Below, piece after piece: positions 39,180 through 61,703 of a stretch of 64,000 bases of DNA (positions are counted from its first letter, which is position 1; each line of letters begins with the position of its first letter). Position numbers and translations under genes: made by a program. This stretch comes from Branchiostoma floridae (Eukaryota; Chordata; Leptocardii; Amphioxiformes; Branchiostomatidae): positions 16,346,378 through 16,410,377 of the forward strand of contig NC_049992.1 in assembly GCF_000003815.2 (NCBI RefSeq). The letters run 5' to 3'. The notes below the pieces were generated by a model that saw only the letters and a list, made by a program, of their open reading frames with translations, had not been told where the DNA came from and did not search any database.

Positions 39180-41400
39180 TGTTAGCCCCGCCCCCTGTCA
39201 GTTAGCTCGACGCCAAGTTCAGAAAATAAAACAGAAAATGAGAGAATCCATTTGAAAAAGAGCTTTGTGGAATATTGTGTGTAGCGAAGCCAGCCGTCCA
39301 AGACGGGAAATGGTTGCCTAGTAACCAGGTACGCACTGTATCGTCTGCTGGGGGTCACTGAAACAGCCACGCCCCCAGGGCTTAGCACGTTGCATTTTCT
39401 ATCAGGGGGTGTTGGGTCTTGAAAAAGATTTTCTGTCGCCCGCTTTTTAAATCTTTTGCAGTTTGAAATTAATGTCCTCTTTTTAAAAGACGGGCCCAAA
39501 TTGAGCATTTCATTTAAGTCTTATGCGACTGTCTGAAATTACTGAAAAAGAGTTCAGCAGATGATAGCCACTCCCCTGTGAATTCCCTGATGGTTCGGTC
39601 TAATTTGCGCAGTGCAAACACACGCTAACCTCCTACCTGCCGCCGCTACCTTTAATGAATGGCGTGGTAGCCTGATTGATTGCAGGGAAGGGGCTTGTAT
39701 TAAGGGCTCCGGATCGGTTAAGGTTTCTCGATTCCGTATCGGTTGGCGGCCGAGGAGAAAGCTCAAGTACTGTATGAGCCCGTAACGGAGTCTGGTAGAT
39801 GATAATAGCGGCCCGAGTGCGGGAAACTTGAGCGGAGTTTGTACGCGAAGCTGCCACCGAGAGTCTTCCGCGTCCACGTAGCCCAAGTTTCCGCAGATAT
39901 TTTCCGTCCCACCTGTTGGATTCAACCCCTGACTGATTCGGACTTCAGTAAATAGCGGAGCCCCGTGTCTTTGCTTTGAGGGGGCAAAAGGACATATTTC
40001 TGAGGGCAGGGATTTGAAGATTTTAAACACCATTTCCCGATGAGCGCCCAGGACGGACAAGTAAAGCAGGCGGAGCCCAAACTCGAGCGAGTTATCCAGG
40101 TTGGGAGCCAGCGTTTGTTGTCTTTTACGTTTCCCCTTTGCACTCTAGCGTGAAATTTGGGGGTCAGGTTGCTGTGTTCCTAGCGGGCGCATTCGTGATG
40201 GGAGGGATTTTGCGGTGCATCTACGATTATCTGTGTGGTTTGGAACAATCGGATCGTGTTTCGACGTTTGCAAAACTGTGAAAATCGAATTATAGGGCCT
40301 AAGATGATTACAAGTCAAGTCAACAGGACAGGAAGGCGTCAATTGAAATGTGTATTATTTCACATCAACATTAATCGAGAGCATTTCTGGAAATTCGATC
40401 TGTTGGAAATAAGTATTGGGTGTCGCGTAAGTGTATCAAAGTGTGATCAAAGGTACCGCCCACCAAATCGACACTTTAGTTGCGAATCTTGCTGGGAGGT
40501 TGTTGTGAGTTCCAGAAAGCGGGGCAAAGAAAGCGTGGCTAATATTGACATTGCTGCAATATTTTCCACCGTCGCAAGCCTTGTTTGGTGATTAGTCGGA
40601 CCTTTAAAATATCACATGTTCACTTTGGTGTGAGATCGTAAGACACAGAATTAAGATTCTAGCCAAACAAAGATCGTGTTTCATTCTTTATTTTATTTTC
40701 CAGAAACCGCCCCTTTTTGCGATTTTTTTGGTGTTGAAAGGTTGTACCGCTCGTTCTCTTGACGTCACATCGATAGCAAGATGAGAGGTTCTTGCTTTTG
40801 TTCCTTAGTGTTTGTTGCCATTGTCGGCGATTCTTTCCACACAGAATATTTTTCAACACCGTTTGTTAGCCGTGGACTTGTTTTACAAGCCAGGCCGACC
40901 CAGTTCAAGAACCCTTTTCCTTCACAGCCGTCGTAGACAAAGGCGATAAGTCGACCCAGACGTATACTTTACCAATACGGATGCTGAGGTCATATCGTTT
41001 TTAGTTGGAGATCGTTGCATTTTTTTTGCGTCCTGTACGCCAACGGTGAACGTTTGTTGCGTTGTTTTGGTTTAAATTCCCGTGTTAATTAGCGGCTTTT
41101 TGTGTGTAGTCTTTGACGTTATTGTTTGCTAGGCGTCGACAGTTTGGTCAGTGTTTGGAGGCGGCGACGCAGGGTGTTATCAGTAGCGCTTTGTTTCTGC
41201 ATTATTGTCGATCTCAACGGAAAACCCCGAGTCGTTTTTCTGCATGCAATTTTCCTTTTCGGCTTTTTGGGTCCAAGGATAATTAGTCTAGGTGCCAGGC
41301 AGACTACAGGTGAACGCCTATTCGTTTTGAGTTGACGTGGTGATTTTTTTCACGTGGCGTTCTGGCCATAAGCCAGGTAGACCGGGTCATCGATTGTACG
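39180..41400. promoter_or_regulatory. GC/CpG-richer region, likely CROCC 5' region
   Basis: Base composition changes from AT-rich surroundings to many CpG-containing words. It contains a perfect cAMP-response palindrome TGACGTCA at 40760-40767 and the X-box at 39313. The 168-codon frame on the minus strand at 39554-40060 has no family resemblance and probably reflects composition. I infer a promoter-like region for CROCC. Confidence 0.4.
39313..39325. promoter_or_regulatory. RFX X-box motif upstream of CROCC
   Basis: GTTGCC-T-AGTAAC fits the X-box consensus GTNRCC-N(0-3)-RGYAAC exactly. RFX factors drive ciliary genes, and rootletin is a ciliary-rootlet protein. It lies 2.75 kb before the CROCC ATG, at the edge of a GC-richer region (39.1-41.4 kb) that could hold the transcription start and untranslated exons. 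Confidence 0.5.
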
Positions 41401-42088: not shown

Positions 42089-45000
42089 GTAAGTCTCCAG
42101 AAAGATGTCTTGATGCAGCCTCCAGCAAGAAGCTAAGTATATTTTCCATTGTTACTGTAGAAACTTGAGGACTCAGTCCTAGGGAAGGGGGAGGAGGAGC
42201 CTTACACCATTCGCAGGGGAGACAGTCCGGGAAGCACAAGGGTTCCTGCTCGAATCCGCGAGATCATCACTAAGAACCTCTCCGAAGAAGACGTATCGAG
42301 CCCCGACGGAAGCGAAGGCATGCAGCCACAAGTAGCAGCCGTCCAGGTTTGTAGAATATAAAGACAAGAATACACTGGTTTCCCCTCCCCCATTTTCCCA
42401 TATGTGTAATGGTTCATTTTGCTGTGTCCATGAAAATGTTGTTTTTGTTCTGTATGTTTGCTTGTCTTGGTGTGTGTTCATAGTTATTTGTATAGTGACA
42501 GAATGTGAGACACAAAATGATGTAATGAGAGACTGGCAGGATTTGAAATTTGGTTTGGCCCGGGTCCAAAGTTGTTCCCATGTAGGATGGTAAGGTTGGT
42601 TTGGCCCGGGTCTAAAGTTGCATAGGCAGAAAAGTGTTTGAGCAGAATCTGCGAGAAATTCAAAATATAAAATTCACCATCATTAAAAAGCGATGAAAAA
42701 AGAACTTCTAAATATATAAGATATTCGATTTCTTCTTTTTTCTAAAAATAATCTGCATCAGCTTACAGGTTTACTATAATCCATAATAGAAAGCAGGAAT
42801 AGCCAAAGAGTCTCCAGGGTTTGCTGTGCTCGTTTATATACATCTTAGAACTAAAAGTCAAACTGTAGCTCTCACAGGCCCTCAGACTCATAAATATTTG
42901 ATTGGTAGTGCTTAATAAAATCAAGACACAGCACACAGAAAAACTTTGTGCTAAAATGGTGTTGTGTTACCAATTCCTCCCTGCAACAGAGTTACAGATT
43001 ATTAGATCAGCTGTACTTGATGTATGCCGTAAGACTTGTTCTTACCATACTGTACATTCTAAGATCTTTGGACTCATTATGACCTCATTTGTAAAATATG
43101 AGTCGACGTTCCAAGCATCCAAATCCAACAAAGTAAATGTTTAATGTCAAGAGTAAGGCGTTGTCTGTATGCTTATCGATTTAACATTGCTGGATGATAA
43201 TGCAAACAGTACACAGTACAATGACTGACTTGTTTGAGGTGTAAATGGTATGTTTCTTCCTTCCCATGCACAAACACGCCTCTTGCATTTGAACAATACT
43301 GAAAATGAAGTTACTTTCAGTGTTTTTATTTTGTGGTAAAAGGGAAAAGAAATCTTTCACTGCATTTGAAGTTCGAGGTTGAAACAGTGTAGTGCAGTAC
43401 AGTACAGAATGACAAAAAATATTTATTTCGCGCTAAGAGTTTTGCAAAAACCGTTGCTAACATTTCGAGATTTACAGTACTGCACTGCTGGTAGGAAAGT
43501 CAAGCTGTGGGGGTGGACTTGTGGGAAATGGCTGACTGGTTGGCTTAAGTTAGCTTACTAAAACGTGGGTCTCAGAAATGTGCGTGATGTAGTTGTAGGT
43601 GATCCGAAGTTGACCTATGGATCGTAGTCAGCATTTCTTATTCCAGCGCACGGCGCACGGTTAAGATATCATTGCAAAACTCATCGCAAACATTCAAGAT
43701 AAACAATACCACACTGCTGGTAGGAAACTGTGGGGGTGGAGTTGTGAGAAATGGCTGACTGGTTGGCTTAAGTTAGCTTACTAAAACGTGCACAGAAATG
43801 TGCGTGATGTAGTTGTAGGTGAACCGAAAATGACCTATGGATCGTAGTCAGCATTTCTTATTCCAGCGCACGGCGCACGGTTAAGATGTCACTGCAAAAC
43901 TCATCGCAAACATTGAAGGTAAACAGTACCACACTGCTGGTATGGAAATGTTTGGGTGGAGTTGTGAAAAATGGCTGACTGGTTGGCTTAAGTTAGCTAA
44001 CTAAAACGTGGGTCTCAGAAATGTGCGTGATGTAGTTGTAGGTGAACCGAAGTTGACCTATAGATCGTAGTCAGCATTTCTTACTCCAGTGCACGGCCAA
44101 CTCCATAGATCACAGACTGTAGATGACTTTAGTGGCAGGAAGGGTAATAGGGGGCAGCCAGCTATGCTGACCGTTACGAATAATCATGATGAAATCATGA
44201 CAAAGTCGTCAAATCGTCTGCTGCGTCTAGTCCTGACTTACGACAACAGTTGGGGCAACTAATTTTGTTCAGAAGGCTTGCCAAGACTTTTCCCATAACA
44301 CCACTCAGTCAAACACCATTAAAGATCTGAGGAGAATCAATAATCATATGGCAGGTGTCAGGAAGAAGATTGGTTAAGCCTTGCCGGCTTTAAAGCATTG
44401 GCTTTAAACCCATTGTCATCATAATTATCGATTGTGGCACCATCTTTTTGAAGTGCCTGATGGAGGAATGACAGCTTGAGTGGTGTCACTGAAAAAATGA
44501 TGTCGTACAAATCAGAACTGAAGTTGAAGTTAGATATTAGGGGGAAGTTTGTGCCGTGCAAATGTAAAGGGTGCCGGGACATCCAGCGTGTGTTGGTGGC
44601 TGGGAAACTTCCGAGGATTCAAACGGTATCTCCCGTGTTTTTCAAGCTGTTTCTTTTAATGATGTAAAGTTTGCAGGTTGTGTACATGTAACTTTTGTGT
44701 GTTTTGATTGTGAGGTTATGAGATTTTGTGTGCTGTATGGAAATGCCATTTTGATATGATACAAGAGAACATCAGATATGCATAATCTGTGTGCTTGTAT
44801 CAAATGGTGCATTTCATAAAGCTATGTAATAGTTATGGCCCAATTATCAGCCTTTAAGTGGAACTTTGTGAAGTTGAAAGTGATGTGGTGAATTGCATTG
44901 TTCTTCCTCTACAAGCCTGTCAGAAACATCTGGTGTCACATATACAGCTTGCAACGATAGCTTTGAAATGTGCACAAAAACACACACGTGCTGTGCATAC

Positions 45001-48000
45001 CAGTACTGTTAAAATGGCATTGCTGAACGGATGTAAAAATTAGAAGTATGAGTTGTTGCACAAAGGTAGATAGAAATAAACCTTCTTTTAAACAAAACAA
45101 CAGCCACATGAAGTCTTTAGAAACCAGAGGAGCTTGTTTTGATAGATTGGAAATGTAACTGGATTATTTTTGTTTGTTTGTAGGAGGAGAATCGCATGCT
45201 CCAGAATGAGCTGGGTCGGGTGGAAGATCTGCTGGCCCAGAGCCGTGCTGAGCGTGACGAGGTCACCATCAAGTACAACGCCGTCAGCGAAAGGGTAGGC
45301 CACGTTTTTATGCCCCTAACTCAGTTAATACCTTACATCCTAGGGGACTCAAGGATGACATAAATTCCTATATGAAAATTTATTGACTAGAATCATCACT
45401 CCGGACTGTGTATTCACTATTCACTCATCGTAGAGACTCATCAAATTCATAGTCTGAAACAGACAGTTTCATAACTGAAAGTATATTACGTTTAGATAAC
45501 ATTGTCCTTCTGAAGATCACTATTTCTATTTTGTGTCTGACAAGACTCATAAAAAATTATTTGGTCATATAAAATGTGCTTTGGTCACATAAAACATGCT
45601 TTGGAAATTCTTGCCTTTGAAAAATCAGTGTCTTTTCAAAGTGGACATTCAAGTATGAGAAGTTGTATAGAGTCCCCTTGGATCTCTCTCTTTGACAAGT
45701 TTTGTTAAAACAATCTTCCAGTAGAACCAGTAGAACTGGAGTGAAGAATATATTTATAGCTTTGAAGATTTATGTACAGTTATGTCCTGCAGAACACTGT
45801 TACATCATTGTAACTTGTTCACCCATGCATAGAAATGGCTGAAATCTCACGATCGTCCATAATTTATGACATGGACGCTTGAGCGGCTGCCTTGGACGTG
45901 CGCGTCTTTGCTTTGCGATGCGATTTTTCAACGATGCCCAAGAGTTCCATCACATCCTTAATGAGGATGTAGATCAATGGTCAAGACTGACAATGAAGAT
46001 TTCTCCAAACAGAACGATCTTAAGTATTTTCACAGCAGTACAGTGGATAGCTTGTGCAAACAGCTGATCAATAACGCACTAGAAAAGTAAACAGTCTAGA
46101 GCAGTGCTTTGATGAGGGGTACTTTTAGATAGGTCAAAGGTCACTTCAGTCTGAAAACATTGTAATACTACTAGTAATAGCCTAGCAAGAAAAGTATAAC
46201 ATGATACGAGGTCATCAATAATGAATGTCCACAAGTCTGTCAGGTTACTACATATGATATAAAGCTTGGACTTGAAACAGTAATATATTGTGTTCCAGGT
46301 AGGTTCGTTGATTGTGTCAAGTCGGAAAGATTTATCAAATATTGATTATCCAATCAATTCTTAAAGCTGGAAATGATTTCCTTGGAGTGGAAAGCCAAAT
46401 GAGACGTGTTAATCTGCTTTGCAGCATGAACTGTTAGAAGGAAGAAAAATCCGCCTTTGCCCCAGATTAAGAGTTGGATTGTTTGAAAACCTCAGCTCCC
46501 CCAGGACTTTGCCCTTATTGTAATGTCAATACAGACCTTAGATACACCTAATCATTGCCACATTAAACCACCTGCTCCCTTGTAATATGTGCGATTAACT
46601 GAAAAGTGATATTACCAGCCTGAAAGTTTAGACAGTTTGAACTGTTTCACTGTAAGTTGGGTTAAAACGAGAAGAAATGTCAAACAGTATAACTACGTAA
46701 CCTAAAACCATTTCGTAAGATGTCAGAAAATAAATAGAAAATGTCAACGCATTTTATGCCGTCAAGCCACTTAAAAGTAATAAAAATCTTACATATATAC
46801 CCATTCAACTTGTAGCACTGGTATCAGCTATCATTTTATGTATGGCATGCAGACACAACTCTAAATTGTACAAAATCAAAAGTTTTTTTGAAGCTTGGGT
46901 TAAAATTGGTATACAATTATTAAAAAGACTTCTTTTTTGTACCAGTCAATTATATAGTTATTACAGAGATAAATGTATCTATTTAGAGCATTTCTATGCA
47001 TTGATATGGCTCGACAATTCTAGTTTCTGACTTTCTTTGCTACTAAGGCCATTAAATTTTATGTGCATCATGCCCCATTGTGATTCATTATCCTCAGAGT
47101 TGATTAAAACAATGGTGTCTGGTACCAGTTGTTAACAACCTGCACACGTCTCAGCTCAGTGAACAGCTAATGTTAGCCATAATCACCAATTAGGAAGACT
47201 TCTGATCAGATTTCTATCAGAGCTTCTGTACTTAACAAATGCTTCTGAAAAATGAAAAAAAAGACTGTCGTATCCATTTATAATGTAACAGGAAATATAT
47301 TTCATGTTAAAATTTTAAACTAAGAGTGACAGATGTTGCTGGAAATGTTCCATGAGTGCCAATGAGTGAGCAGTTACCCATTATCGTTGGGACCATTTAT
47401 TTCAAAATCCATAGTCAATTTTGTGTTAATTGCTGGAGCACAAAGGATTTCAGTCTCCCCTGAGCATTTATTATTCCCAAGTACTCAATAGGAGCAAAGC
47501 ACTGCTGTCTAGCTTTTCAGTTAATTATACAGCAGCTAATACAGTCAATGGTAGGGGCCAAGGATGGCAAGTCCTACCAGGTAGTAATTAACTGCGCTGT
47601 CGCACAAGACTAGTCGGTGATATGGAGGGTGTTTGTGATGTCGCAGTTGAGACAATGTCTGACGTTGAGATGGAGATAGAAGGTGACGACCAAGAGGTCG
47701 AGTCGGTGGCAACGGCCGATCTTCTGGCGGAGATTGAAGACATTAAGGTAATGTATCACTGTGTGCTGGTAGGGAAATGATTATGTTATATCATAATGTA
47801 TGTTTGTAGGAAAAGGGCCCGCTCTGACAAAATGGGTATTGTCGCGCTCCTCTGCTTACCGTTGCAATGGTGATAGCGCTGGTAAAATCATTGCGTGGAA
47901 TATTTCCTTGGCAAAGCAGTATGTTAACTTTATAATTATATTTATAGTTAAATGTATCTTCACTGGATGGGACTAGGTGAGGTGAGGTGAGGTATCTTCA

Positions 48001-51000
48001 CTACAACTCATATGAATGGAAAGATCTCTAATACTTGAGTTGTGATATACTGAAATAAGAACATATTGGAGAAAAAAATCCTCATACTTCCAAGGAAGAG
48101 AGGACATGGTCAAAACTTCTGAAGGAGTGTGACATAATTCTCTTATAGTTATATATAGCAACATATAATTCATTCTTATAGTTTAAGAGTACAGTATTCT
48201 TTGTCCTTTTGATGGTAGACACTGTAATAAGCAAGTGCCTACCTTTGCTATTGCCAGGATTAGTAATCATTTCAAGTTCACTGAACCGAGAGCATGAAAG
48301 ATGATGTCATATAGACTCATACAGGGTTTTGCAAACAGAGCCAGGTTCATGAAAATGATTGTACATGTAAACTATAAACAGTTGCTGATGGAACATGTGA
48401 AGGTATAATGTCCTGGTCCTGTGTTTAATGTTTTAAAGTTATCGCTGAGGTTGGTTTCCTTGTCACCATAGCAACTGCAGAACAGCCCTAGCCTCCTGTA
48501 CATGGTACAAGAGGCTGGACTCTACCATTGTTGAATAAAGGGGGCATAATGAACCTTTATCAATGATAAAGTGATTAAGTTCTTTTTTACATAAACCAAA
48601 TTTAGATCCCCATTCTTTTACCCGTGAGATCCTTCCAATTTTTGGTTTAGGATCTTGAAAAAAAGAAAGATAGCATTGTACTCTTTTGACCCTGGTATTC
48701 AGGCCGGTCACCTCACACTAAAGTCTACAAATTGTCCACCAGAAATAGCTCTCAGGTCTCACATGTCAGGGACACAGTATAGATATGCAGTTCAAACAAA
48801 CCAAGAAAGTGTACTTATCCTTCGCCTTTCGTAGCACTACTTAAACATTAAGAATAAGAATAGAAAGCCTTTAAAAGGTCTCATTGGGTTGCCTGAACCA
48901 TATGTCAACAATAGAACTTTAACACAAGCAACTGTATACTTCTTAAGTTTGGTCAAAGTACACTTGTTATGTTACCTGTTCTCTGGGCTTTTAGCTCAGG
49001 GTTATCAGAGCATGGCACTGTGTTTGTAAGTCTCTGTTTTGTTTAGGTCGTGTCATCACTTATCTGGTCTCTTAGCGCTAAACCAAAATCACAACATCAG
49101 TTCTAGCTAATGGCCTGGAAGTTTTTTCCCTGAATCTCACAAATGCGAATCAGACTAAGAAGATCAAATTTGATTCTTTTCCTTGGCTTGATCACCTGCC
49201 AAAGCACTGCATTGGGTGATGTTGGCTGTAAATACAAAGTAGAGCATCCCCAAACAGTGGGAAGAAAGGCAGCATGTCTATATTTGGGAAGTTTGGGGAG
49301 ATGGAATGTTGGATTGGGAAATATACCAGATCATGTCTCTATTGGTCTTCCTTTGTTACTACTCATGTTTTATTAGCTGTGCTTTTCACAGTATTAAACA
49401 TTTCAGAGGCAACTTGTAGTCAAAGGTCTTTCTGTATTTTTGTTTTCTATTTCCTAATTGCTTCTAAAGGTTTGTATATCCGGTCTGATGTAATTGTCAA
49501 CTTTTTGTATGAAAAGATGGGTTTCATGTTACCATACAGAGTGTCTAAAATTCCAGGATGTTGCTATAGGAAGTGGGTTTCAAGTACATAAAACAATGCT
49601 AGAAAATGCCAAGGAATTGTTTTAAAGCACATTGCTTTGCAGTACGACTATTAGTGTAGTGTTCTGTACCAGGTCCTATGTTGTATCCCCCTATATTGTT
49701 GCCATACTTCAGTTTGCATTGCTAAAGGGGGATTGACTCCAGAGGGGCTGGACTATGTCACTTCTTTCTAAGCAAACAATAAGGTTATATCACAATATGC
49801 TTCAGGGCTGACTCTATGAGATTACATGTATCTGATGGACAATAGAGATTCCAAACAGATAAACAGATATGCAATAGGTCAGAACACAAAGACCCCATTC
49901 ACACTCCTCCTTTTGTACACAGTTTTCTATACATTATACAGTCAGAGATATACTTTTGAATCTGCATATTCAATACACGCACATTTCCCCATTCTGCCCA
50001 AAAAATGATATTACAATTGTAATACTATACCCCCTTCTAACTGCCTTCTCACAATATTTCACAGCACTTTACATGCCTCCAGTGCTTTGCTTCTTTGTTA
50101 CCTAGCAACAAGTATTAGTTGCTTGGCTACAGGGACAGCAACAATAATGCACCATAGAATAGTTGGATCGTTTTTAGTACAATATGCATGCTGTTTATTT
50201 CTTCACAAAGTACAATAACAAAGTATTAGATCAAATACAGTACCAGTGCTGCAAAAGATTTTAACAATTTTCTCACCACTGTATACGTCATTCTATCATT
50301 CATCATTCTTAATGATGTACTGAGCTGATCTTTTCTGAACTGTTCATTGAATTATCACGATAGGAATCCTGGAAAATACCACCATTAATAATTTAATGGG
50401 TAATGACCAGTTCCTTCATCATGAATGGGATACATCATGCCCTTTATAGTGCTGTCACATTGGGTATTGTTAACATGGCAATGAAATGCACAGACAGGCT
50501 GTCAAAAGGCTGAAGTAAGAGTTGGGTTAGGAGAGTCTTGCCCCATGAGCGATGAAATTGAAAGAAATTGCACCATAGGAGATAATTGCATTGAGAAAAC
50601 AAATGCAGAATGGTAGAGGAAAGACAAGAGTAGAGAAGATTTCAAAATGGCAGGTTTCAAACTTGTCCGTTCTATAAAGATACTGATTTTCAGGCATATT
50701 CAGGTATAATAATTCCACGTTGAGGCTGATAGAATGTTGCAAGTGTTGGTTCATCCATGATGGACACCTCATGAATAATTAATTAGGTAACAGGTGGTTG
50801 CCACAAAGATTATCTTGTAAATCCTATAGGTGGCGTGCATTCAATAATTTTTACATATTTAGAGGAGCAAAAACCTTATTTCTATGGGGAATGTCATCTT
50901 GAGAAACATCTACTGTCTTCTAAAAAGTCTTTAAGTCTTTTTCATTTCTTCCGGCCAAAAGTAGTAAATGCATTATAATACAGGGTGTTCGTTTCACCTT

Positions 51001-54000
51001 TTTGACATGCACTAGTTATGTTGATAGTGCAACCTTTGTTTACAACTGAAAGGTTAGATAAATGTAAATATGTTTAACATACTGGATCTTGTACTTTGGA
51101 GATTTGGCTAAAAATATGTCCATCCCAGTTCACTTACTTGGTTTAAGCTCCCGTCCACATTGACAAGTTCTTTATGTAGCTTTTTACAGATGTTTACACA
51201 CAGTTTCTTTACTTTCCCAGCCTGTGGACTTGACCTAATTGTTACCTAATTATTCTGGTCGGTTTTACGACAGCCTGTTTGATATCTTTATTTGCACTCC
51301 TACCAACTTGACTGAGGAACGTGACTGGTGAATTTTTCTCAGCTACAGGCCCCCCTAAACCTTTACAAAGCTGCGTTATGTGCTCTTCGGATTTACCGAA
51401 TTGACACCTGAATTGCTACACGTAATCCTCTTTTGTTTGCATGTCCCCTACCTTTAACTTGCCCGTCCAATCAGATGGCTTGAAACATGAATATTAAGTA
51501 GGCACAGGGTGAGTAGGGTTTGGTGTTTGGAGCTGTGAATGGCTTTGAGAGGACCCCCCATGAAGGGGGGACGCTATGGGTTGTCCTGGGCCTGCCCGCT
51601 ATTTGCATAATGAATACACCTGTCTCTGGTGACCCGACGCGTTGAGAATGTAGTGTTATGTTTCTTAGCATTGTTTCGCCGTTTACTTTTCAATGGTAAC
51701 AGAGACGCGAGAGGGTAGTGGCATAATTAACGCGGGTACAATCCGCTGGTTTGACTCGGAGTGCTCGGTGGACAGCTAGTGCCGTCAGTGCAGAGCTGGT
51801 CAAAATGAGCGAGGAACTGTCTGCATCAGGGTTTGTGAGGAAGCGAGTGCAGCGGGCAAGTAGCACACACACTCAGGAACACTTCTGGGCCACCGTTATG
51901 TCAGAATGATTTGTACTTAGTGTCACATGTGAGATGAAAAATTGTAAGCCAGCAAACAGGAACTCACAGTGCATCATAGGTCAAATGCTTGGAAACATTT
52001 CTTGCAGTGTTCACTGAAACTACCTCAAGAAACTTATTTGAGGTTTAAAGTATGTTATTGGATGTAATAATCCTGAGATTCAGAGAGCAGGAACTTCAGT
52101 TATTCCTTAGCAATAGCCGTCTATACAAGTTTTTGTTTACAAGTTGGTAAGGCCCTATTTTTAAGCTGGAAACGTGATACAGTAATTTGTTATGAAGCTT
52201 GGTGATGCTAGGCTCACCTTTATAGTGACTAGTGGCCTTGGTTGTAAAAGGACAATGACTTTGACTTAGCAAGCTGGGGTCACACCGGTTCGTAGTTGAG
52301 AGTAGCTCAGACCAGGTCAGTTCTCGGCCAGTGAAAGCACAGCTTAGCTTCTTAGCACAATCCCTCTTCAAACAGAGCAAGCTGCTCAAATGTTTTGTGT
52401 TGGTAAAACGATCGATATCCCACGCTAGGGCGACCGATTTTAAGAGCTCTCTGCCTTTAAAAGGACTGGGCTAAAGCTACAGCTATTTCACAGGCTGTAC
52501 TTGAGTTGGAAATGTAAAGAAAAAATGTTTTGAATTCAGACAACAGGCTAGCTTTGTATTTGATGGCTTGCGATGTTAACCCCATATATTTTCTATACTT
52601 CCTTTAAAATCTTTGCTGAATTAGGTGCTTGGTATTTTCAGAAATTTGACAGGTTTAATTAGGATGTAGAATTGTCACGGGGATTCAGGTAGAAGGATGC
52701 AATAGATGAAATGGAAGATTAGATTATTTCTATGAGGGACGTAATTTACATACAAAGTTTTGCTCGCAAAGGTGCATTGTATCAGCTTTGCTGCCAATCC
52801 AACTTTCTCAAACAATTATCAAGAATTCCATCCGAGAGGAACGATAACTGAATGTACTTTGATTTTCAACACTTTAGCTTGAGAGATTGTTTCAAGTGAA
52901 AGGAGGTGCACCACTCTCAAATGAGGAGGTACATATCGTTCATTACTATAGTTAAACTTGCATCCATTTTCTTGACTTCTCAAAGTGAGTATGTCTATGT
53001 TCAGCTTGGCTTTTTGTAAATGGTCAAATTCACGCACTTTGTATTTGCTTTGTTCTACTTTCTGCTATCTCTGTAAAACTAGAATTTAATCAAATTGAAT
53101 GCCATTGGACACCCTGCAATTTTTCTCTGACTTAACAAGTTTCTTTCAAAGTTATTCAATACCAGTAGAGTAGCATGATTTTATTGATCCTTTTAAAAGT
53201 TTGTGAATTTTTTGGTTGCTGTGAACTAACTATGTGTGAACTCTTATTTAATTCACAATGCATTGCATGCCATAGTTGGAACAGGAAGGCTTGGAGACAT
53301 GGGAGAACCCATGGGAGAAAATTTCCACGGTAACCGTCGCCATAGCAACAGCATAGATACTGCATGTTTCAGAAATGCGGTAGATTTAGGCCATAGGTCG
53401 CATGAGCATGCCAGAAAGTTTTGAATGACAGCTGCAATTCAAAGTTGATAATGCACCAATAGTTACCATTGACTGTCGACAATGTTTAGTGTCTATTGTG
53501 ATTTTAAAGTTTTGCATGACAGCTGCGATTCAAAGTTAATATTCATAATAATTTAAAGACAAATTCACCAGTAATTTCCGTAGGCCAGTTTGACATCTTT
53601 TAGATGATAATTCTTAGTAGTTCAATCAAAGCTGAATTTTTTGTTGCAAGTTAGATTCAAATTAGGAAAGAACTGCATGGTTATTGGATTGCTTATAGAC
53701 TATTTGAAATATTAGCACCTATAGTCACATCTTATACTAGATTTAGTATTTATTACCTTTAGCCAGCCATTTGCATCCAGTAACATTAGTGAGACTATAA
53801 ATTATAGACAACCATCTTCTAATCCTTTCTCCTCATTTCCCAATGAATTCTAGCTTGAAAAAGCTTTGGAGTTCGAAAGTACCTACCACAAGAAGGCACG
53901 AGACCGGATTTCAGCGGTAAATAGACTCATGAAAACTCCATTAAAAATGCATAGCGCTGGATTTTCCCATCTACTTTCTCTCTGTGATGCCTTGTGAATG

Positions 54001-57000
54001 CAGGGATTAGTGGGTCAAATCCACCAGTCTTGTGATGTTTACTTTTTGCCTTAAAATAAGTTAAATAGCAGTGATGATGTTGTTGACTTCTAGATTTTGA
54101 GTGTTGATAGCCTGTCCTTGCATGGTCGTATACTTGCATAGAATTTTGGGAAGAAATATATATGATTGTGGCAGAATTCAATTACTAATAGATAAAATGG
54201 AATGATTTGCAGATAACATTTTAACATTACATCGAAGGCTATGGCACAAAGCTCTTCAAAAATACTAGGTTATATCGCTAGCAGTTCAAAGGAATTAGGT
54301 TGGCTATTTGACAAGAGTCCTTGTTTTCTCCTGACAAGTTGAGTGAAGTATTGAAGGAGATGGAAAAAGAGTCACTAGACAGAACTATCCTGGATCTGAG
54401 GAACCAACAGTTACAAGAGATGCTGGCTGAGGTAAAGGACTAAATTCCTGTTGCAGAAATCCTAAACTTGTCAAATTGTTAGACCTATAGTCTCGCAGTT
54501 ACTACAAGACTTGTAAAAATGTATTTTTGCAAGTTGTTTGCAAATCAGAGCATCAAATTATCTAGAAAACTAATTGTGGACTTATTGCCCTTGTCCTGTG
54601 GACAGTTGGAAAAGGAATACCTGCTTGTCTGTGATGACAAGAGTCAGGAGTGTGCAGCCCTGACAGAAGAGAACACAATGCTACTAGAACAGGTACTATA
54701 GCACTCTTCTCCACTGGATTGGCTTAGTCGTGAAGTTAGTTCAAATAGTGTATTTTTTTAAACAGACTCAGACTACACTAGCTTACAGTACTTACAGTGG
54801 CAACACATAGATTATCTCGAAATGAAGATTGATAAAGTCCCTGTAATTTTGATGGTGATATGACAGAAATTTGAGAAAAAACAACAATTTCCCTTATTGA
54901 CTGACTTCTACTGTTGTACTGGTAGTTAGAAAAGGAACACAGTGATAAGAAGATGTTCCAACAAGAGTGCAAGAACCTCACCACTAAGGCTGCACAACAG
55001 CAGCAGCAACTTGAGGAGGTAAACGACCAAGATTTCTTCCCTTAATTCCTTCAAATGATGATTTTCCCTTTTCCTTATATCTGTGCTGTCTTTCTGTCAG
55101 AAATATTCAACAATCTCTCCCTTCTCTTAGCTGAAAAAGAAGTTGGAGGACTTGGAAGATGAAAGACAGGAGTTAGAAACAAATAAATTCCAGCAAGGTG
55201 TTCTGGAAGAAAGAATACGAGAGGTACATGCATGCATTAAACGATACATAATATCAACGCACCTCCTTTATCATTCATCAACATTTTTAGCATTTTAGGA
55301 TACAATTGTTCGTTTAAATGCATTGAGGTTGTAGTGCATACCCTAATGCTGAATGGTCTTGGATCTATTTTAGTTGGAACATGACTTGGAGAGTGACAGA
55401 AAAGAGATGGATGAATCAACAAGACTCAATAAAGAGTTACAGGAAAAAGTTGAAGAGGTATCTCTAATCAATGACCTTAGGCAATATAGTCTGGCTGCTT
55501 TTACATCTCCATTTGCTATAGTTTGACAATTCTAGAAATCCCCAGAGTTAATTGTAGGTTCCCAGATTATCTCTAATATAACCAAGAATGATGCCAACCT
55601 CAGTATTGAGCTGCTAAGGCCTCATGGTCACAGTAGAAGCACAATGTAGGCCCAGTCTATATTTAGAGCAAGGCTGCCCAACACAGGCCAAAGCAAAGCA
55701 TGTTGTCCTCCCTTGGCTGGGTCTCAATATCCCATAGACACTGGGCTTAGAAGGACTTTAAAGTCACGCCTCAAGTAAAGACACCCTTGTGCCTCTACTA
55801 TGTCAAAGGCTTTAGTTTAAGCTATGGTTCAAAGCTGTAGGATTCAATTTAAAGGCTAGAGCTTTAAAGAAGAGGTCCTCTGCAGGAATGTAGTGTAGTT
55901 TTTACAGCTAAATGTGTAGCATTTCCGACCCTAACATGCATGGGCAGAACACAACCAATTGTTAGTCCCACAAATTCAGTGAAACATGTATAAAGTGTAA
56001 CCACAAACTTTATAAAACTGGTCTGTAGACCTCCAAAATTGAAGAAACACTCCAGTAGGCTACGAGGGGCGTGCAAGAAGTAATGGCCCTGACCCATTTC
56101 CCATAGCAGGAGATTAATGAAACTTGGCACAGATATTAGTCATTCTCTTCATAGGAATCACCCAGAGTTATGCATTTCTCCCATCGTTTGATGCAGCTCT
56201 GAACACCGTTTTTGTAGGACACCCCAGGTTGGTCCTCCAACAGATGCCTCATCAATGGCAGAAGAGGAACAACCAGGTCTGGGAGCTGTTTCCACAGACT
56301 TCCGGCCACGTTTGAATTCAGGATGCCAGCGTTTTACAAGGTCATATGATGGGGCATCATCACCATAAGTTTCATTTATTTCATCAAAAGTCTTCTTTGG
56401 TGTGCGTCCTTTCAAATACAAAAACCGGATCACTGCGCGACACTCAACTGGTTCCATTTCACACCTGGTCCATTTCGCACCTGACTAAGTTCATACACCG
56501 GTAAATCAGAAACCACAATTAGTTCAGAGCTGTCTTTCGCAACATAACCCATAGAGATATGAATCATTATACATACAAAATTTCATTTAGATCAGACGAC
56601 TGGAAGTGGGTCAGGGCCATTACTTCTTGCACGCCCCTCGTAGTTCGATGTATTGTACATCTCTTAAGATCTTTCTTCAACTTGTCTTAGTCCACTAAGA
56701 ACCAGTCCTTTGCTGCTATCATTACTGTTTTTGTGTGTAATCTCCGAACTGTGTCCTAGCTGGAGCATGACCTCAGGCGCAAGACACAGGAGTGCTGCAA
56801 CATGGAGTTAGTCAACTCTGAGATAGAGGAAAAATTGGAACAGGTCAATGTTATTATCCAGTCATCCATTCAGCAGTTTTCTTCATTTCTTAAAACATTT
56901 CGCTTTGATCTTCTAGTAAGCAGGCAAAAAGCATTGTAACTATAGATCAAATAATAGTAGCTGAAATAAAAAGTTAAAGTTAGATTTATTGGAAATAATG

Positions 57001-60000
57001 ATTGCTCTTATCTCTTAAATTCTGAAATACAGATCACATATGTTGCTGTTAGTTTTCTCTTGAATCTACCTCACCTCACCTCACTGGTCCCATAGCCTCA
57101 CCGGCCGTAGGGGCAGCAATCCCATCAACATAAGTCTTGAATCTACAGTAACTCGAATATAGGACTGTTTTTCAGTGGTAAAACTGTTAGAAGTCGCTGT
57201 CTTTTCCCCTCATCATCTCTTGTACTAATGCTGATGACTTGTGTGATTGGACCTCTAGGTTCAGGAGAGTTTTGCAGTCAGTAAGAGACAATGCCAGTCT
57301 TTGGCAGCACAGAAATCCCAGCTACAGAGTGTTGTAGAAGAGGTACTAACATTGCATGACTGTACTACTTTATTCTGACTAACAGTGCATGGGTAATGTC
57401 AAGGCATACCATATCAGTTTGAAAGGATTTTGATTCAAAAATACAAAGTCAAGGTTTTGATACTGTGAAGCTTTCATGTTCTCAAAAGTTGGAGCGCAGT
57501 TTACTTTTATTACTGCTGATATTTGATGCCTTCACATTAGCTTGTACACTTTGATCTCTCGTTATACTTTTATCTGTCTCTAAATCTACAGACTGAGGTA
57601 TATTGTAGAAGGCTTAGGACTCGTCACTTGTCAGATTTTCTGTTTAACTATAAGACTAAGAACATACATGGATCTTATTCATCAAAAGTAGACTAGCTCG
57701 AACTAGGTCAAATCACTGAAGCCTAGATTAGGTTATGTTGATTAGTTGTTGTTTTGTGTTGGCACATGTTTGTGATAACCGAGGCACCTGTATTGCCGTC
57801 CCACCCAAGCTAGAGGTAAAAGTGGAGGAGTCTCCCCGCCAGGCCACTCAGAAGATGCTAGAACAGTATGAGGAGCTCGAAAATAGGTTACAAGAGGTGA
57901 CTGGATCATACTCATTATACTTGTGACATGGTCATGGGCCCTATTCCCTGCCCCCCACCCCACATGGAACTTTTGCCTAAGTTCTATTGTTATGGTGTTT
58001 TCATTATTTGTTAGTGGAGGGATAAATGAAAGTTTGTTATAATGCCTTGCAGCAAAGTTTCCCAACCCATATATGGGCTTATAAGGCATCATGATCAAAA
58101 GAATATAAAGATTTTTATCTCTTTGAATCATTCTCTGCTGTAAAGTTCAGGGCATAAACTGATAACTTTGTACATTGTAGGACTGGTAAAATCCACAAGG
58201 AAAAGGGCCCATTGCCATGTTAATTACAGTTGTTGTAGATATATGTGTCTATTAGTAATCATTTATGTTGTGGATATGGTAGATTGTTTGCAAAGTAGAC
58301 AGTTTTTCCAAAGTTGTAGAATTATATCTTACAATGGTAATAAAAGATTTCGTTTCGGGTTTTTTCTGTGAGGATTTTACCCTTTTAAATCTGTTGTAGA
58401 TCTTCAGTCACTTTCTTTGCAGTAAGACGTGATAATACTTAGCAGGTATCTTGTAAATGGCAAAACACATTTTGAATCTCTTTATCAGATAAATATAATA
58501 ACCTCCTCAGCAGATTAATGATTATGTTTGATCAGTTATATATACATAGGATCAATGCTTAAGACAAAGTTTAATCGCATAAAACAACAAGCATATAATA
58601 TGCTTGATGATACAAACAACTTAAAGCTGGCCTCATGCATCATAGCTGCGAATATCAAGTGCTCATTCTGGTCATCCTTGCTATGGAGATTCTGCGCATG
58701 CAAAACAGCGACTCCCCACACTATCACAGCGTCCTCCCATCTCCCAATGCCTTCCTACGTTCCCGCGCTGGCAGCAAACGTGTGCGACGTTTCCCGGTTT
58801 CCCACACAACCCTCCCCCTTCCTGCCGCAAAGCTGGAGCAGGTGCTCAAATGGGAGGAGGAGGTTCGGGCGCAGGAGGCCGCCAAACGGGAAGAACTCGA
58901 GGTGGAGAACGAAAGACTCTCCAACAAAATCAATGAGGTGAATATGGTGTGCTGTCTGGGACATAAGAAATAATGAAGACGTCAATAATGTTTCAGGCGT
59001 CTCATATAAGAGATTGGCAACACACTATATGTACTACTGAAGTCCTGACTTGTACGCAGTTTGGTATCCGGTGTGATATATCTTCATGCTAGGAAAATAA
59101 TACACTGGAGGAAATATTCTTGAAATCACTGATCACAGACCACAATATAACAATGAAAAGAATTTGCAATCATTTAGACTTTCAACCATTTAATTAATGT
59201 TCTGAAATGACAGCACTTGGTTTGTACAACAAGGTGTTTTTTGCTGTTTGGTATTGAGGACTTTTCTTCACACAATACAGTAGAATGCACCAATTTCTGA
59301 ATGTTTTTCCTACCAGTTGGAGTCCCAACTAGACTGGGAGCACAATGCTCGGGAACGAACCGTTTCCGAGCTGCGCTTTGCACAAATGACAGTCGAGAAG
59401 AAACAGCTCAAAATACAAGAGGTATTCTCGTCACCACACTTGTGTGCTGTTCTGTGTGTCTCTCTTCAACATTAATACAAAAACATACTTATTAAGTAAT
59501 AGATAATGATATGATAATTTCATAACTTAAATACAGAACATAATTAGACATTTCCTTGTCCAATCTGAAAGAACATCATGGTACCTTGACTTGTATTTTG
59601 TCACTTGTAGTATAAGGCTTAAGTATAAGTGTTTCTCTTCCTAGTTGGAAAAAATCATTGACGGACAGAACAAGGAAAACCAGAGGAATGTACGAGAAAT
59701 AAACTCCATGAGACATGACATCGAGAGCAAAGAGGAGGAGGTTAAGGAGGTATCCAAGAAAACTTACCTTACACTTTGCAATCAGAGCAAAAATTCCTTA
59801 AAGTGACTGAGTGTCTTCTTTGTATGATACTAATAAGTGATGCAGCTTTATTTGGTGCTGTGTGACAACTAACATTTTAAGATATCCAGAAAAACAACAT
59901 AGCATTGTTAAAGTCAATATTGAAGGCTAACATTTGAAGTCTTACTTGGAAGTACAGTAGAAACCGTTTATTTGCACACCCCATTGCCAGCGTATTTTGT

Positions 60001-61703
60001 GCAATTATCCGGTTGGTGCAACCATGCAAAGTTATCCAGCTGGACAGCACCAGTATTCCTTGCAATTAACAGAAGTATACCTTAATCCGTTGTGCAATTA
60101 ACTGACTTCTACTGTACTGGTAACTCGTGATTGTCCTGCCCGAACCCCCTGTAGTTGGAACAGCAACTTTCCCAGTGTGGACAGGAGATTGAGAAGGGGT
60201 CTCGGGAAATCAAGGCCATGAACTTTAGGAGCAGCAAACAGGAGGACCAGATCAAAGAGGTGCAATATCATAAAAATCATGATGACAACAATAACAAATC
60301 ATAATGATTTACCATCACTAAAATCCCTCTAGGTATCACCTAGAAATTAAAGGCTATTCCATCTTAAACTTTCAGGTGGTTGGCCAGAACATTTTACAAA
60401 AATCAAAATTCTAAGAAACAGGAAGATCTGTATCTTGTTATTGCAATAACATCAAGAGGAATATCATATTTGAACCACCACCTGAGTTTTTTTAGATGGA
60501 ATAGCATACTCTTAATCATAATTAAACCACATCACCAGTTTTTGTGCAGTGTCTGTTTCTCCTTTGGCTTTCCCTTTGTCAAAAATAAAACTTGAGAATA
60601 CACAGTTATTTCTTTGTGTGCTGTGGCCTTCTTTTTCCCAAGCTCTACTTAAAGTGTTGCGCGTCATATTAAGAGCTAAGTGATTAAGAAAACGTATGTC
60701 TTTCCTTTAATTGTAGCTGGAACATCGCACCAAGAGGGATTCACGTGAGATCCAATCCCTCAATCTCAAAAATGAAAACCTTCAAAAACAGATTGAAGAG
60801 GTATAATAAAAAGTGTGTCTTGTGTCTGTGTGTCTTTACTCTAATCCAAATAGTTTATGTCTTCAGTCTAAGAAATCTTTTTTAAACCTTAACAGTTAAT
60901 TTTCTTGCATCCAAGCTATTCTGATGCAGTATGCAAACGCATGTTGAGAAAATGACATCAAAAGTTGAAAACATCTTTTGATGTCAGTTTTCTCCTATCT
61001 CTTCTGTCAGCTGAAACAATATCTGGCAGAGGAAAAGGGAGAAAAGGACCAGAAAACACGCGAGGTCCAAGGGCGCGACCAGGATATCAAGCGCAAGAAT
61101 CGTGAGATTTCAGCCTTGAAAGCAGAGAAGCAGGAACTGGAAGCAAAAATAGACGAGGTATCATAGATTCTGATAGCGCAGAAAAAAATCAGGACATATC
61201 TTTTGTTATATTTCAGTTTGTTTGGTTTTTTTAACATTATCTTTTTGGAGACAACAACTTTCTAGTAGTCTTTACCAGACGTCTTGGTTGCTACAGAAAT
61301 GCTGTTTCGGCAGTGATGATTGGCCAAATACAGAGAACTATAATATGCCAGCTTATTCCTTTGGCATATCATCTCTCCGTGTTTGACCAATTTCTGTAGC
61401 AAACCAAAGAGTCTGGTAGAGACTATTTTGCTAAGAAATCATGTAAGACTCAAGAGATGAAGTTAATCAGTTTGCAGAATCAGCACGTTTTTATCTATCC
61501 CACTTCCGTAGCTGGAGCAGCTTCTGAAGCACGAGACCGGCGAGCGCGAGCGCGAGACCACGGAGAGCAAGAGCCTGGCCTCGCAGAACATCGAGCTGCG
61601 CCGCAAGCTGGAGGACGAGCACGCCAACTACAAGCGGAAGCTGCAGGCGTACCAGGATGGGCAGCAGCGCCAGGCACAGCTCGTGCAGAAGCTGCAAAGC
61701 AAG
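42074..61703 (+). CDS. CROCC: CROCC (rootletin), 5' half with a 16-exon coiled-coil cassette array
   Basis: Exons: 42074-42088, 42161-42346, 45184-45294, then 16 cassettes (53276-53329, 53854-53916, 54339-54431, 54606-54692, 54926-55018, 55131-55223, 55374-55457, 56760-56843, 57259-57342, 57810-57896, 58833-58937, 59317-59421, 59645-59749, 60155-60259, 60717-60800, 61011-61157), then 61512-61703. The gene continues past the window. Every exon is phase 0. Signatures of vertebrate rootletin: MSL start, IREIITKNLS, RVEDLLAQSRAERDE, YNAVSER, and KLQAYQDGQQRQAQLVQKLQ. Rootletin polymerises through coiled coils into the striated rootlet under basal bodies and links centrioles. The vertebrate protein goes directly from YNAVSER to the segment encoded at 61512; the 491 codons between are extra. 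Whether all cassettes are used in one transcript is unknown. Confidence 0.92.
42161..42346 (+). CDS. CROCC: CROCC exon, rootletin N-terminal motif
   Basis: 62 codons starting KLEDSVLGKGEEEPYTIRRG and including VPARIREIITKNLSEEDVSS, homologous to TLESSVL and ALIREIVTRNLS of vertebrate rootletin. Acceptor ..gttactgtag, donor CAG/gtttgt. Confidence 0.88.
43440..44100. repeat. Tandem repeat, about 221-bp unit, three copies
   Basis: gctgactggttggcttaagt recurs at 43531, 43754 and 43974, and gtgcgtgatgtagttgtagg at the same spacing. The copies are over 90 percent alike by eye. The repeat lies in a CROCC intron. Confidence 0.88.
45184..45294 (+). CDS. CROCC: CROCC exon, conserved rootletin block
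   Basis: 37 codons starting EENRMLQNELGRVEDLLAQS and ending IKYNAVSER, close to identical with the vertebrate block. It ends phase 0 directly before the point where the cassette array is inserted. Confidence 0.95.
47622..47747 (+). CDS. CROCC: Possible alternative first exon of CROCC
   Basis: ATG then 41 more codons, MEGVCDVAVETMSDVEMEIE and an acidic continuation ending AEIEDIK, to donor AAG/gtaatg in phase 0. It cannot be an internal exon, since entering from exon 45184 in phase 0 gives a stop. Spliced to a cassette it would give a rootletin lacking the conserved N terminus. An X-box lies about 700 bases downstream (48462). Confidence 0.5.
48462..48475. promoter_or_regulatory. RFX X-box motif in CROCC intron
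   Basis: GTCACC-AT-AGCAAC fits GTNRCC-N(0-3)-RGYAAC. It is one of four such matches in the CROCC locus. Confidence 0.4.
50097..50109. promoter_or_regulatory. RFX X-box motif in CROCC intron
   Basis: GTTACC-T-AGCAAC fits the X-box consensus. It lies 1.7 kb upstream of the possible alternative first exon at 51805. Confidence 0.4.
51805..51855 (+). CDS. CROCC: Possible alternative first exon of CROCC with GC donor
   Basis: ATG in good context (GGTCAAAATGAGC) after a GC-rich stretch, reading MSEELSASGFVRKRVQR to CGG/gcaagt, the standard form of a GC-AG donor, in phase 0. Joined to a cassette it would run straight into coiled coil. Without splicing the frame stops at 51909. No GT donor fits. Confidence 0.35.
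53276..53329 (+). CDS. CROCC: CROCC cassette 1 (18 codons)
   Basis: ATAG/TTGGAACAG.. reads LEQEGLETWENPWEKIST to ACG/gtaacc. It starts like the others, but its tryptophan-rich content and weak acceptor make it the least certain cassette. An X-box overlaps the region just after its donor. Confidence 0.5.
53336..53349. promoter_or_regulatory. RFX X-box motif next to cassette 1
   Basis: GTCGCC-AT-AGCAAC fits the X-box consensus, seven bases after the exon end. Confidence 0.45.
53854..53916 (+). CDS. CROCC: CROCC cassette 2 (21 codons, 3 heptads)
   Basis: LEKALEFESTYHKKARDRIS then Ala, between ..aattctag and GCG/gtaaat. Its start resembles the vertebrate LEQAL that follows YNAVSER. Confidence 0.8.
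54339..54431 (+). CDS. CROCC: CROCC cassette 3 (31 codons)
   Basis: Starts LSEVLKEMEKESLDRTILDL and ends LQEMLAE at GAG/gtaaag; acceptor ..tctcctgacaag. Confidence 0.8.
54606..54692 (+). CDS. CROCC: CROCC cassette 4 (29 codons)
   Basis: Starts LEKEYLLVCDDKSQECAALT and ends TMLLEQ at CAG/gtacta. Confidence 0.85.
54926..55018 (+). CDS. CROCC: CROCC cassette 5 (31 codons)
   Basis: Starts LEKEHSDKKMFQQECKNLTT and ends with a run of five Gln and LEE at GAG/gtaaac. The LEKE start and the spacing to QEC are shared with cassette 4. Confidence 0.85.
55131..55223 (+). CDS. CROCC: CROCC cassette 6 (31 codons)
   Basis: Starts LKKKLEDLEDERQELETNKF and ends LEERIRE at GAG/gtacat; acceptor ..cccttctcttag. 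Confidence 0.88.
55374..55457 (+). CDS. CROCC: CROCC cassette 7 (28 codons, 4 heptads)
   Basis: Starts LEHDLESDRKEMDESTRLNK and ends LQEKVEE at GAG/gtatct. It shares LEHDL and length with cassette 8. Confidence 0.88.
56063..56640 (-). mobile_element. Internally deleted mariner element (578 bp)
   Basis: 39-bp terminal inverted repeats starting CGAGGGGCGTGCAAGAAGTA, one mismatch by eye, flanked by TA on both sides (56061-56062, 56641-56642). Inside, on the minus strand, is the start of a mariner transposase. It sits in the intron between CROCC cassettes 7 and 8 and is non-autonomous. Confidence 0.92.
56158..56457 (-). pseudogene. Mariner transposase N-terminal fragment
   Basis: The frame starts MEPVECRAVIRFLYLKGRTP and includes YGDDAPSYDLVKRWHPEFKR, the helix-turn-helix DNA-binding part of mariner transposases. 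The following catalytic DDD domain is missing; after AIDEASV the similarity breaks, consistent with an internal deletion. It cannot be an active enzyme. Confidence 0.88.
56760..56843 (+). CDS. CROCC: CROCC cassette 8 (28 codons, 4 heptads)
   Basis: Starts LEHDLRRKTQECCNMELVNS and ends IEEKLEQ at CAG/gtcaat; acceptor ..ctgtgtcctag. Confidence 0.85.
57062..57130 (-). mobile_element. SINE fragment
   Basis: On the minus strand it reads ..GCTGCCCCTACGGCCGGTGA..GGCTATGGGACCA.., ending in GGTGAGG repeats. It matches the element at 19950-20075 and the GGTGAGG run near 47976. Confidence 0.5.
57259..57342 (+). CDS. CROCC: CROCC cassette 9 (28 codons, 4 heptads)
   Basis: Starts VQESFAVSKRQCQSLAAQKS and ends LQSVVEE at GAG/gtacta. 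It is the only cassette beginning with Val rather than Leu. Confidence 0.83.
57810..57896 (+). CDS. CROCC: CROCC cassette 10 (29 codons)
   Basis: Starts LEVKVEESPRQATQKMLEQY and ends LENRLQE at GAG/gtgact; acceptor ..gtcccacccaag. Confidence 0.85.
58833..58937 (+). CDS. CROCC: CROCC cassette 11 (35 codons, 5 heptads)
   Basis: Starts LEQVLKWEEEVRAQEAAKRE and ends LSNKINE at GAG/gtgaat. The frame stays open upstream through a GC-rich stretch with ATG at 58682, so an internal start here is conceivable. Confidence 0.88.
59317..59421 (+). CDS. CROCC: CROCC cassette 12 (35 codons, 5 heptads)
   Basis: Starts LESQLDWEHNARERTVSELR and ends KQLKIQE at GAG/gtattc; acceptor ..tttttcctaccag. Confidence 0.88.
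59645..59749 (+). CDS. CROCC: CROCC cassette 13 (35 codons, 5 heptads)
   Basis: Starts LEKIIDGQNKENQRNVREIN and ends EEEVKE at GAG/gtatcc. The REI motif is shared with cassettes 14, 15 and, as REV/REI, 16. Confidence 0.88.
59955..60114. mobile_element. TA-flanked MITE (160 bp), pogo/Tigger-like ends
   Basis: The ends CAGTAGAAACCGTTTATTTG and the inverse of CAGTAGAAGTCAGTTAATTG are flanked by TA (59953-59954, 60115-60116). A similar start, CAGTAGAAACTCATAACGGG, occurs at 63765 without a matching right end in the window. It lies in a CROCC intron. Confidence 0.75.
60155..60259 (+). CDS. CROCC: CROCC cassette 14 (35 codons, 5 heptads)
   Basis: Starts LEQQLSQCGQEIEKGSREIK and ends EDQIKE at GAG/gtgcaa. 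Confidence 0.88.
60717..60800 (+). CDS. CROCC: CROCC cassette 15 (28 codons, 4 heptads)
   Basis: Starts LEHRTKRDSREIQSLNLKNE and ends LQKQIEE at GAG/gtataa. It aligns with cassette 14 if one heptad is removed before SREI. Confidence 0.9.
61011..61157 (+). CDS. CROCC: CROCC cassette 16 (49 codons, 7 heptads)
   Basis: Starts LKQYLAEEKGEKDQKTREVQ and ends LEAKIDE at GAG/gtatca. It is the longest cassette, two heptads more than the 35-codon type. Confidence 0.9.
61266..61425. mobile_element. MITE (about 160 bp) with about 30-bp inverted repeats
   Basis: TAGTCTTTACCAGACGTCTT at the left end and the inverse of TAGTCTCTACCAGACTCTTT at the right, continuing to GGTTGCTACAGAAAT and GGTTTGCTACAGAAAT. 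No coding capacity. It lies between cassette 16 and the next CROCC exon. Confidence 0.7.
61512..61703 (+). CDS. CROCC: CROCC exon after the array, conserved rootletin block
   Basis: 64 codons starting LEQLLKHETGERERETTESK, then IELRRKLEDEHANYKRK and LQAYQDGQQRQAQLVQKLQ. The vertebrate segment is LEQAL..ELRRQLQEE..RRKLQAYQEGQQRQAQLVQRLQ, directly after YNAVSER. It ends AAG/gttggt. The next exon lies beyond the window. Confidence 0.95.

Follow-up and report, generated by a model that had tools for sequence, protein, structure and literature searches.

On balance, the gene (CROCC) for rootletin, the protein of the fiber to which cilia are anchored, probably harbors in the lancelet Branchiostoma floridae, within a single intron, an ancient array of about 15 small coding exons, and some of its transcripts may well take up these cassettes as optional segments. 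The window, that is, the whole 64,000-nucleotide stretch of DNA that was analysed, contains the first coding exon of the gene at 40040 on the + strand, and in joined-region coordinates the gene reaches ~99900, with exons beyond the window at 69713, at 74320 and onward to that end (Table 1). It is the one rootletin gene found in this lancelet genome (513,431,437-base assembly). The lancelet origin of the assembly is backed by 41 matches the size of exons, at up to 91% identity, to a lancelet fluorescent protein, clustered on C4 and C17 and on C14 and C3. From residue 56 to residue 1991 of human CROCC the gene is colinear with the human protein, 28 tblastn segments falling in order and the longest stretch without a match being residues 433-584. 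Along C14, downstream of exon 61512, Pfam Rootletin matches in five segments, all in order, and two of these (69.3 and 40.8 bits) exceed the cut-off of 36; exon 61512 alone scores 29 bits, below that cut-off. The same exon searched against the genome finds itself at 100% and no second strong match (next best E 1.45), and a search for solved relatives of both exons that flank the array returned nothing useful (best E 0.23). Vertebrate CROCC is the same gene, with the NAVSER-LEQ junction at the array site, and the human protein is not known to carry anything between NAVSER and LEQ. The preliminary description of this locus, which took both flanks for rootletin segments contiguous in the vertebrate protein, is borne out against human CROCC and Pfam Rootletin.

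Table 1. Exons, cassettes and candidate regulatory elements of the lancelet rootletin locus (all on the + strand)
Feature	Interval	Strand	Length (aa)	Remarks
X-box-like RFX site, upstream of canonical start	39313..39325	+		GTTGCCTAGTAAC
Canonical first coding exon	40040..40099	+		MSAQDGQVKQAEPKLERVIQ; by eye like the human CROCC N-terminus; tblastn gives no match
Canonical exon 2	42161..42346	+		KLEDSVLG...RIREIITKNLSE...AAVQ; E 0.054 over 17 residues
Canonical exon 3	45184..45294	+		terminal NAVSER; rootletin similarity
P2, candidate alternative first exon	47622..47747	+		MEGVCDVAVETMSDVEMEIEGDDQEVESVATADLLAEIEDIK (MEGVCD...IEDIK); phase-0 donor
X-box	48462..48475	+		GTCACCATAGCAAC
c1, rejected	53276..53329	+	18	LEQEGLETWENPWEKIST
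X-box	53336..53349	+		GTCGCCATAGCAAC
c2, plausible cassette	53854..53916	+	21	LEKALEFESTYHKKARDRISA
c3	54339..54431	+	31	
c4	54606..54692	+	29	
c5	54926..55018	+	31	
c6	55131..55223	+	31	
c7	55374..55457	+	28	
c8	56760..56843	+	28	
c9	57259..57342	+	28	Val-Gln start
c10	57810..57896	+	29	
P3, speculative candidate alternative first exon	58683..58937	+		Ser/Pro/Arg head of 50 residues that reads into c11 in frame
c11	58833..58937	+	35	
c12	59317..59421	+	35	
c13	59645..59749	+	35	
c14	60155..60259	+	35	
c15	60717..60800	+	28	
c16	61011..61157	+	49	
Canonical exon, 3' flank of the array	61512..61703	+		LEQLLKHE...KLQAYQ...QSK; rootletin similarity

Sixteen heptad-sized exons adding 491 residues had been proposed for the intron between NAVSER and LEQ. 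All sixteen intervals are present, each preceded by AG, followed by GT and open in phase 0, and they do sum to 491 residues. Leu comes first in 15 (Val in c9), Leu-Glu in 12, and Glu or Gln comes last in 14, as had been described; phase 0, found in all 16 as compared with 14 of the 24 other rootletin introns, likewise upholds the claim that any cassette can be skipped without a change of frame. What does not stand is the full count. The first interval, c1, is not a credible exon, as it carries a Pro and two Trp, breaks the coiled-coil pattern with a core occupancy of 0.2, scores -2.0 as an acceptor and -0.5 as coding sequence, and adjoins the X-box at 53336-53349, which begins 6 bases past its GT. 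The accepted set comprises the 14 cassettes c3-c16, with c2 added as plausible, for an insert of 452 residues, or 473 with c2. The label "heptad-sized" fits the 10 of 16 lengths that are multiples of seven (binomial p 1.2e-5), and not c3-c6 and c10, of 29 or 31 residues, nor c1. A further candidate exon at 52878-52928 (17 aa) was rejected on a coding score of -6.4. Protein searches of the genome with c11-c16 or c3-c10 revealed no second such array, the best candidate matches outside this one having E 0.13 or worse.

The array is real and, as far as its sequence tells, most likely coding. A strict pattern, in which AG precedes Leu-Glu and a frame open across 75-150 nt ends in GAR, CAR or AAG before GT, was framed after the array had been seen; the test being post hoc, its weight lies in the width of the margin and in controls that came out empty. 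Eleven occurrences of the pattern fall in the 8.1-kb array, that of c6 beginning 12 nt inside it. The array's reverse strand, both strands of window positions 1-38000 and the stretch 45300-53270 have none, and 1000 first-order Markov sequences average 0.035 (at most 1 in any). Elsewhere it occurs three times in 74.2-100 kb, each time within a downstream rootletin exon, and once in 61.7-74.2 kb, at 64323-64451, a candidate rejected as not coiled coil. Coding scores are positive for 11 of the 16 intervals and negative for c1, c2, c6, c7 and c9, with per-codon values between -0.29 and 0.90 bits for the cassettes and of 1.24 and 1.58 for the flanking canonical exons. Among 520 null exons, between 2 and 72 reach the total score of each of c3-c16, counts that overstate chance because the null contains real exons (69713, and perhaps another at ~16.9 kb on the reverse-complemented 1-38 kb). 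Several cassettes are weak singly, and the case therefore rests on the whole set. Across c2-c16 there are no stops in frame 0, which is open by selection, versus 23 and 31 in the other two frames, and codon bias is absent in c6, c7 and c9 (z 0.7, 0.2 and 0.8). Pooled GC3s is just as much in excess when this DNA is read in frame +1; the excess thus lacks frame specificity, and for this reason GC3 was discarded as proof of coding. Against Pfam, the joined cassettes resemble coiled-coil families (tropomyosin, crescentin rod, KASH, GAS), all below their cut-offs.

The cassettes also share fixed positions within the heptad. In c3-c16 the first residue (Leu or Val) and the third residue from the end are hydrophobic in 14 of 14, and the fifth residue in 12 of 14, such that each accepted cassette starts at heptad position d and carries a hydrophobic a third from its end. 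Owing to these fixed hydrophobic ends, any splice combination retains the a-d step: the step is 3 at any junction, and then 4 where the fifth residue is hydrophobic, as it is in 12 of 14. The six cassettes c11-c16 amount to exactly 217 residues, or 31 heptads, and enter exon 61512 in the same register; together with its first 35 residues they form 252 residues, 36 unbroken heptads, in which Leu, Ile, Val, Met, Phe or Tyr occupy a/d at a fraction of 0.556 in one register and 0.04-0.35 in the other six. Upstream, c3-c6 and c10 contain an internal shift that leaves their ends unchanged, and no one register stands out cleanly when c3-c10 are joined (0.515 for the best, 0.388 for the next). At the NAVSER-LEQ junction itself the heptad step is imperfect (Val at -4). 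A single Pro occurs in the 452 cassette residues.

Beyond their register, the cassettes resemble one another in sequence. A shared pattern of the 3' halves had been noted earlier, and a 3'-anchored alignment bears this out: a pattern common to the 14 cassettes and to residues 17-35 of exon 61512, which by eye reads xxxxxLxxxNxxLxxKIEE, gives a sum-of-pairs similarity of z 10.8, above all 2000 shuffles in which core and non-core residues were held apart. The N-terminal parts of the cassettes likewise exceed all 2000 shuffles. Coiled-coil composition alone yields some signal, less than the cassettes do: controls drawn from the human rootletin rod gave a mean z of 1.4 (sd 1.6, maximum 6.2) for 15 windows in 60 draws, and a mean of 1.7 (maximum 4.8) in a second set of 60 draws, so that z 10.8 stands against at most 6.2 in 120 control draws. 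Among aligned pairs with the same residue, 195 of 480 have identical codons, with a null of 197.7 (sd 11.8). As the synonymous codons are randomised and the protein pattern stays, we infer that the array is old and that selection has held its pattern. The tandem exon duplication suggested at the outset survives in part, as a common origin. A simple tandem series finds no such backing: among the 14 cassettes, more distant pairs are not significantly less alike (Mantel r -0.14, p 0.15), and identical synonymous codons are not in excess. Adjacent pairs average nominally 30.2 and all pairs 23.1. The weak dependence on distance and the randomised codons fit an ancient array and leave the tandem steps unproven. 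As a set, the cassettes can be aligned to the opening five heptads of exon 61512, whose first 35 residues are likely a cassette homologue, and a 29-nt stretch covering the acceptor and first codons of c8 shows 72% identity with the corresponding stretch of exon 61512. Individual matches reach p<0.05 for 3 of the 14 (c5, c8 and c9), and for this reason we call exon 61512 a likely donor exon and no more.

How, then, would such an array be used? One possibility, appreciably less probable than optional use, is that it serves mainly transcripts started internally, from P2 near 47.6 kb or P3 near 58.7 kb, yielding rootletins with other N-termini that continue through the cassettes to the common rod, and that the canonical transcript joins NAVSER directly to LEQ. 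Read from its second Met (47655), P2 scores 24.9, above the full P2 exon and best among the ATG..GT candidates listed for 45.3-53 kb, and P3 with c11 scores 39.0; by comparison, the maximum in 1-38 kb on both strands is 10.1, and the canonical first exon reaches 13.8. At each of the two ATGs, G occupies both -3 and +4, and P2 finds itself and no second match in the genome. CpG peaks locally at 47.5, 51.5 and 58.5 kb, and P2, with an observed/expected ratio of 0.77, sits between windows of 0.24 and 0.12. X-box-like RFX sites, of the form GTNRCC-N0-3-RGYAAC, number six on the + strand of the whole window (17444, 30980, 39313, 48462, 50097 and 53336), compared with a mean of 0.37 and a maximum of 3 in 60 Markov sequences, and the last three, like the CpG peaks, favor internal starts. 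Several points weigh on the other side. The X-boxes near P2 are found downstream of it rather than immediately upstream, and CpG is similarly high elsewhere in the gene (0.75 at 43.5 kb). Nearly all of the coding score of P3 belongs to c11 (35.1 of the 39.0 is coding, and c11 alone gives 31.6), its head contributing little, and its open frame may be due to chance, as c4 likewise has 41 open residues upstream. Neither P2 joined to c2-c3 nor P3 with c11 has a Pfam match near any cut-off. Internal starts and a cassette array shared with the canonical transcript could also coexist. Separately, 51500-51900 is a stretch of GC 0.50 with an ATG at 51805 (MSEELSASGF...; A at -3); no strong phase-0 donor accompanies a start near 51805, and the stretch is perhaps a further promoter or untranslated exon.

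The splice sites bear on whether the cassettes are optional, constitutive or decaying. Cassette acceptors average 0.72 and donors 1.21, versus 2.69 (p 0.0035) and 2.65 (p 0.028) in the 24 other rootletin introns, a comparison that favors the canonical sites, as canonical pairs were chosen by highest splice score, and that counts all 24 rows, of which the first is wrong (it skips exon 69713) and those with donors below -3 are doubtful. GC3s is 0.55 in the cassettes versus 0.76 elsewhere in the gene. The weaker splice sites and codon bias hint at optional use and could also accompany decay or fast evolution; the AAG acceptors of c3, c10 and c11 count against the optional-exon reading. With the tilt toward canonical sites in mind, the weaker splice sites and codon bias also tell against all or most cassettes being constitutive, which would simply add ~450 residues to lancelet rootletin relative to its vertebrate counterpart, with no regulation; we consider this unlikely, human CROCC having no known segment of this kind, even though every cassette is in frame with identical heptad ends and 12 of the 14 introns of c2-c16 are short (112-467 nt). 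That the cassettes are relics of old exon duplications, now unspliced and decaying, would account for the weak sites and for the negative coding scores in 5 of 16, yet relics at synonymous saturation should show stops and a lost core, and the hydrophobic ends in 14 of 14 and the z of 10.8 render such decay improbable. A distinct gene lying within the rootletin intron, to which candidate first exons and a stop one codon past the c15 donor, followed by AATAAA at 60805, might be ascribed, is hardly credible given that c16 ends in a phase-0 donor and rootletin exon 61512 is the first phase-0 exon after it, that 61157-61512 contains no AATAAA or ATTAAA, and that the cassette set aligns with the start of exon 61512.

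Under optional use of an ancient array, the reading we prefer, the cassettes would have a common origin, to which the first five heptads of exon 61512 (LEQLLKHE...KLED) probably go back as well, and could be joined or skipped freely without loss of reading frame or coiled-coil step. Some rootletin transcripts would then contain some or all of them, inserting up to 452-473 residues between the N-terminal segment and the remainder of coiled-coil domain 1; the array falls near the N-terminus, probably within CC1. At 0.1485 nm per residue, the rod would gain up to 67-70 nm, shifting the N-terminus outward relative to the rest of the molecule with CC2-CC4 packing unchanged, with possible effects on the position of the A-band, the reach of membrane contacts or the striation pattern. 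One study describes a predicted rootletin coiled coil of ~265 nm with a stagger of ~80 nm, N-termini that point away from the centriole and are proposed to lie at the A-band, and a vertebrate striation repeat of 80.1 nm; it reports that CC1 self-interaction was not found, that striation spacing differs among species and even inside one rootlet, and that the function of striations is unknown (PMC11623930). The full array would come near one such vertebrate repeat. In lancelet larvae, cells of the tail fin contain large rootlets and express Rootletin (PMC5247814, PMC7296684), and this expression is reduced by retinoic acid (PMC5247814). As a long shot, choice among about 15 register-neutral cassettes might act as a ruler coded by splicing, in which segments of mostly 4-7 nm each place the N-terminus in the staggered fiber and so set the striation spacing or the stiffness of the rootlets, among them the giant rootlets that act as fin rays in the larval tail. 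If the cassettes are used, a stepwise change in rod length without a break in the coiled coil would make control of spacing directly testable, and the larval tail fin is the tissue in which cassette use could be sought. The fixed heptad positions at which cassettes start and end show, moreover, how splicing might edit a coiled coil safely.

Small in-frame coiled-coil exons are described as optional in the variable domains of kinectin, where they are few; we know of no homologous array of the lancelet size there. The alternative exons of Dscam substitute for one another. Dscam and insect myosin heavy chain are reported to carry mutually exclusive tandem exons, duplicated in one gene and picked by splicing (PMC5775551, PMC2257972). 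Unlike such substitutes, the lancelet cassettes vary from 28 to 49 residues and look additive, and their unequal lengths would speak against a mutually exclusive cluster. Closer in kind is the PEVK region of titin, where short, repetitive exons follow one another in the gene of a fibrous protein and the number spliced in changes the length of a mechanical element (PMC6469411). Both systems have short in-frame repeat exons that potentially set length; PEVK is a spring region, whereas the lancelet cassettes are coiled-coil heptads that need register and matched ends, and splicing is established in titin and presumed in lancelet rootletin. Fast skeletal troponin T (TNNT3) has neighboring alternatively spliced exons 4-8, a smaller group than the lancelet array, and the terms exon duplication, coiled-coil and heptad appear in a paper on it (PMC2447309). 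A search of openly available papers, covering titles and the openings of abstracts, found no account of such a rootletin array; a gene model containing these exons may already exist.

A few further features of the window are worth recording. Around the stop and AATAAA past c15, 60800-60830 includes GT-rich DNA and is a possible intronic polyadenylation site. The intron between c7 and c8 contains, at 56060-56643, terminal inverted repeats of 66 nt that are 83% complementary and lie 452 nt apart, which we take to be perhaps a mariner-like or MITE remnant. Tandem repeats occupy 43505-44097, within the intron that separates canonical exons 2 and 3 (220 bp, 2.7 copies, 92% matches), and 63478-63591 (54 bp, 2.1 copies).
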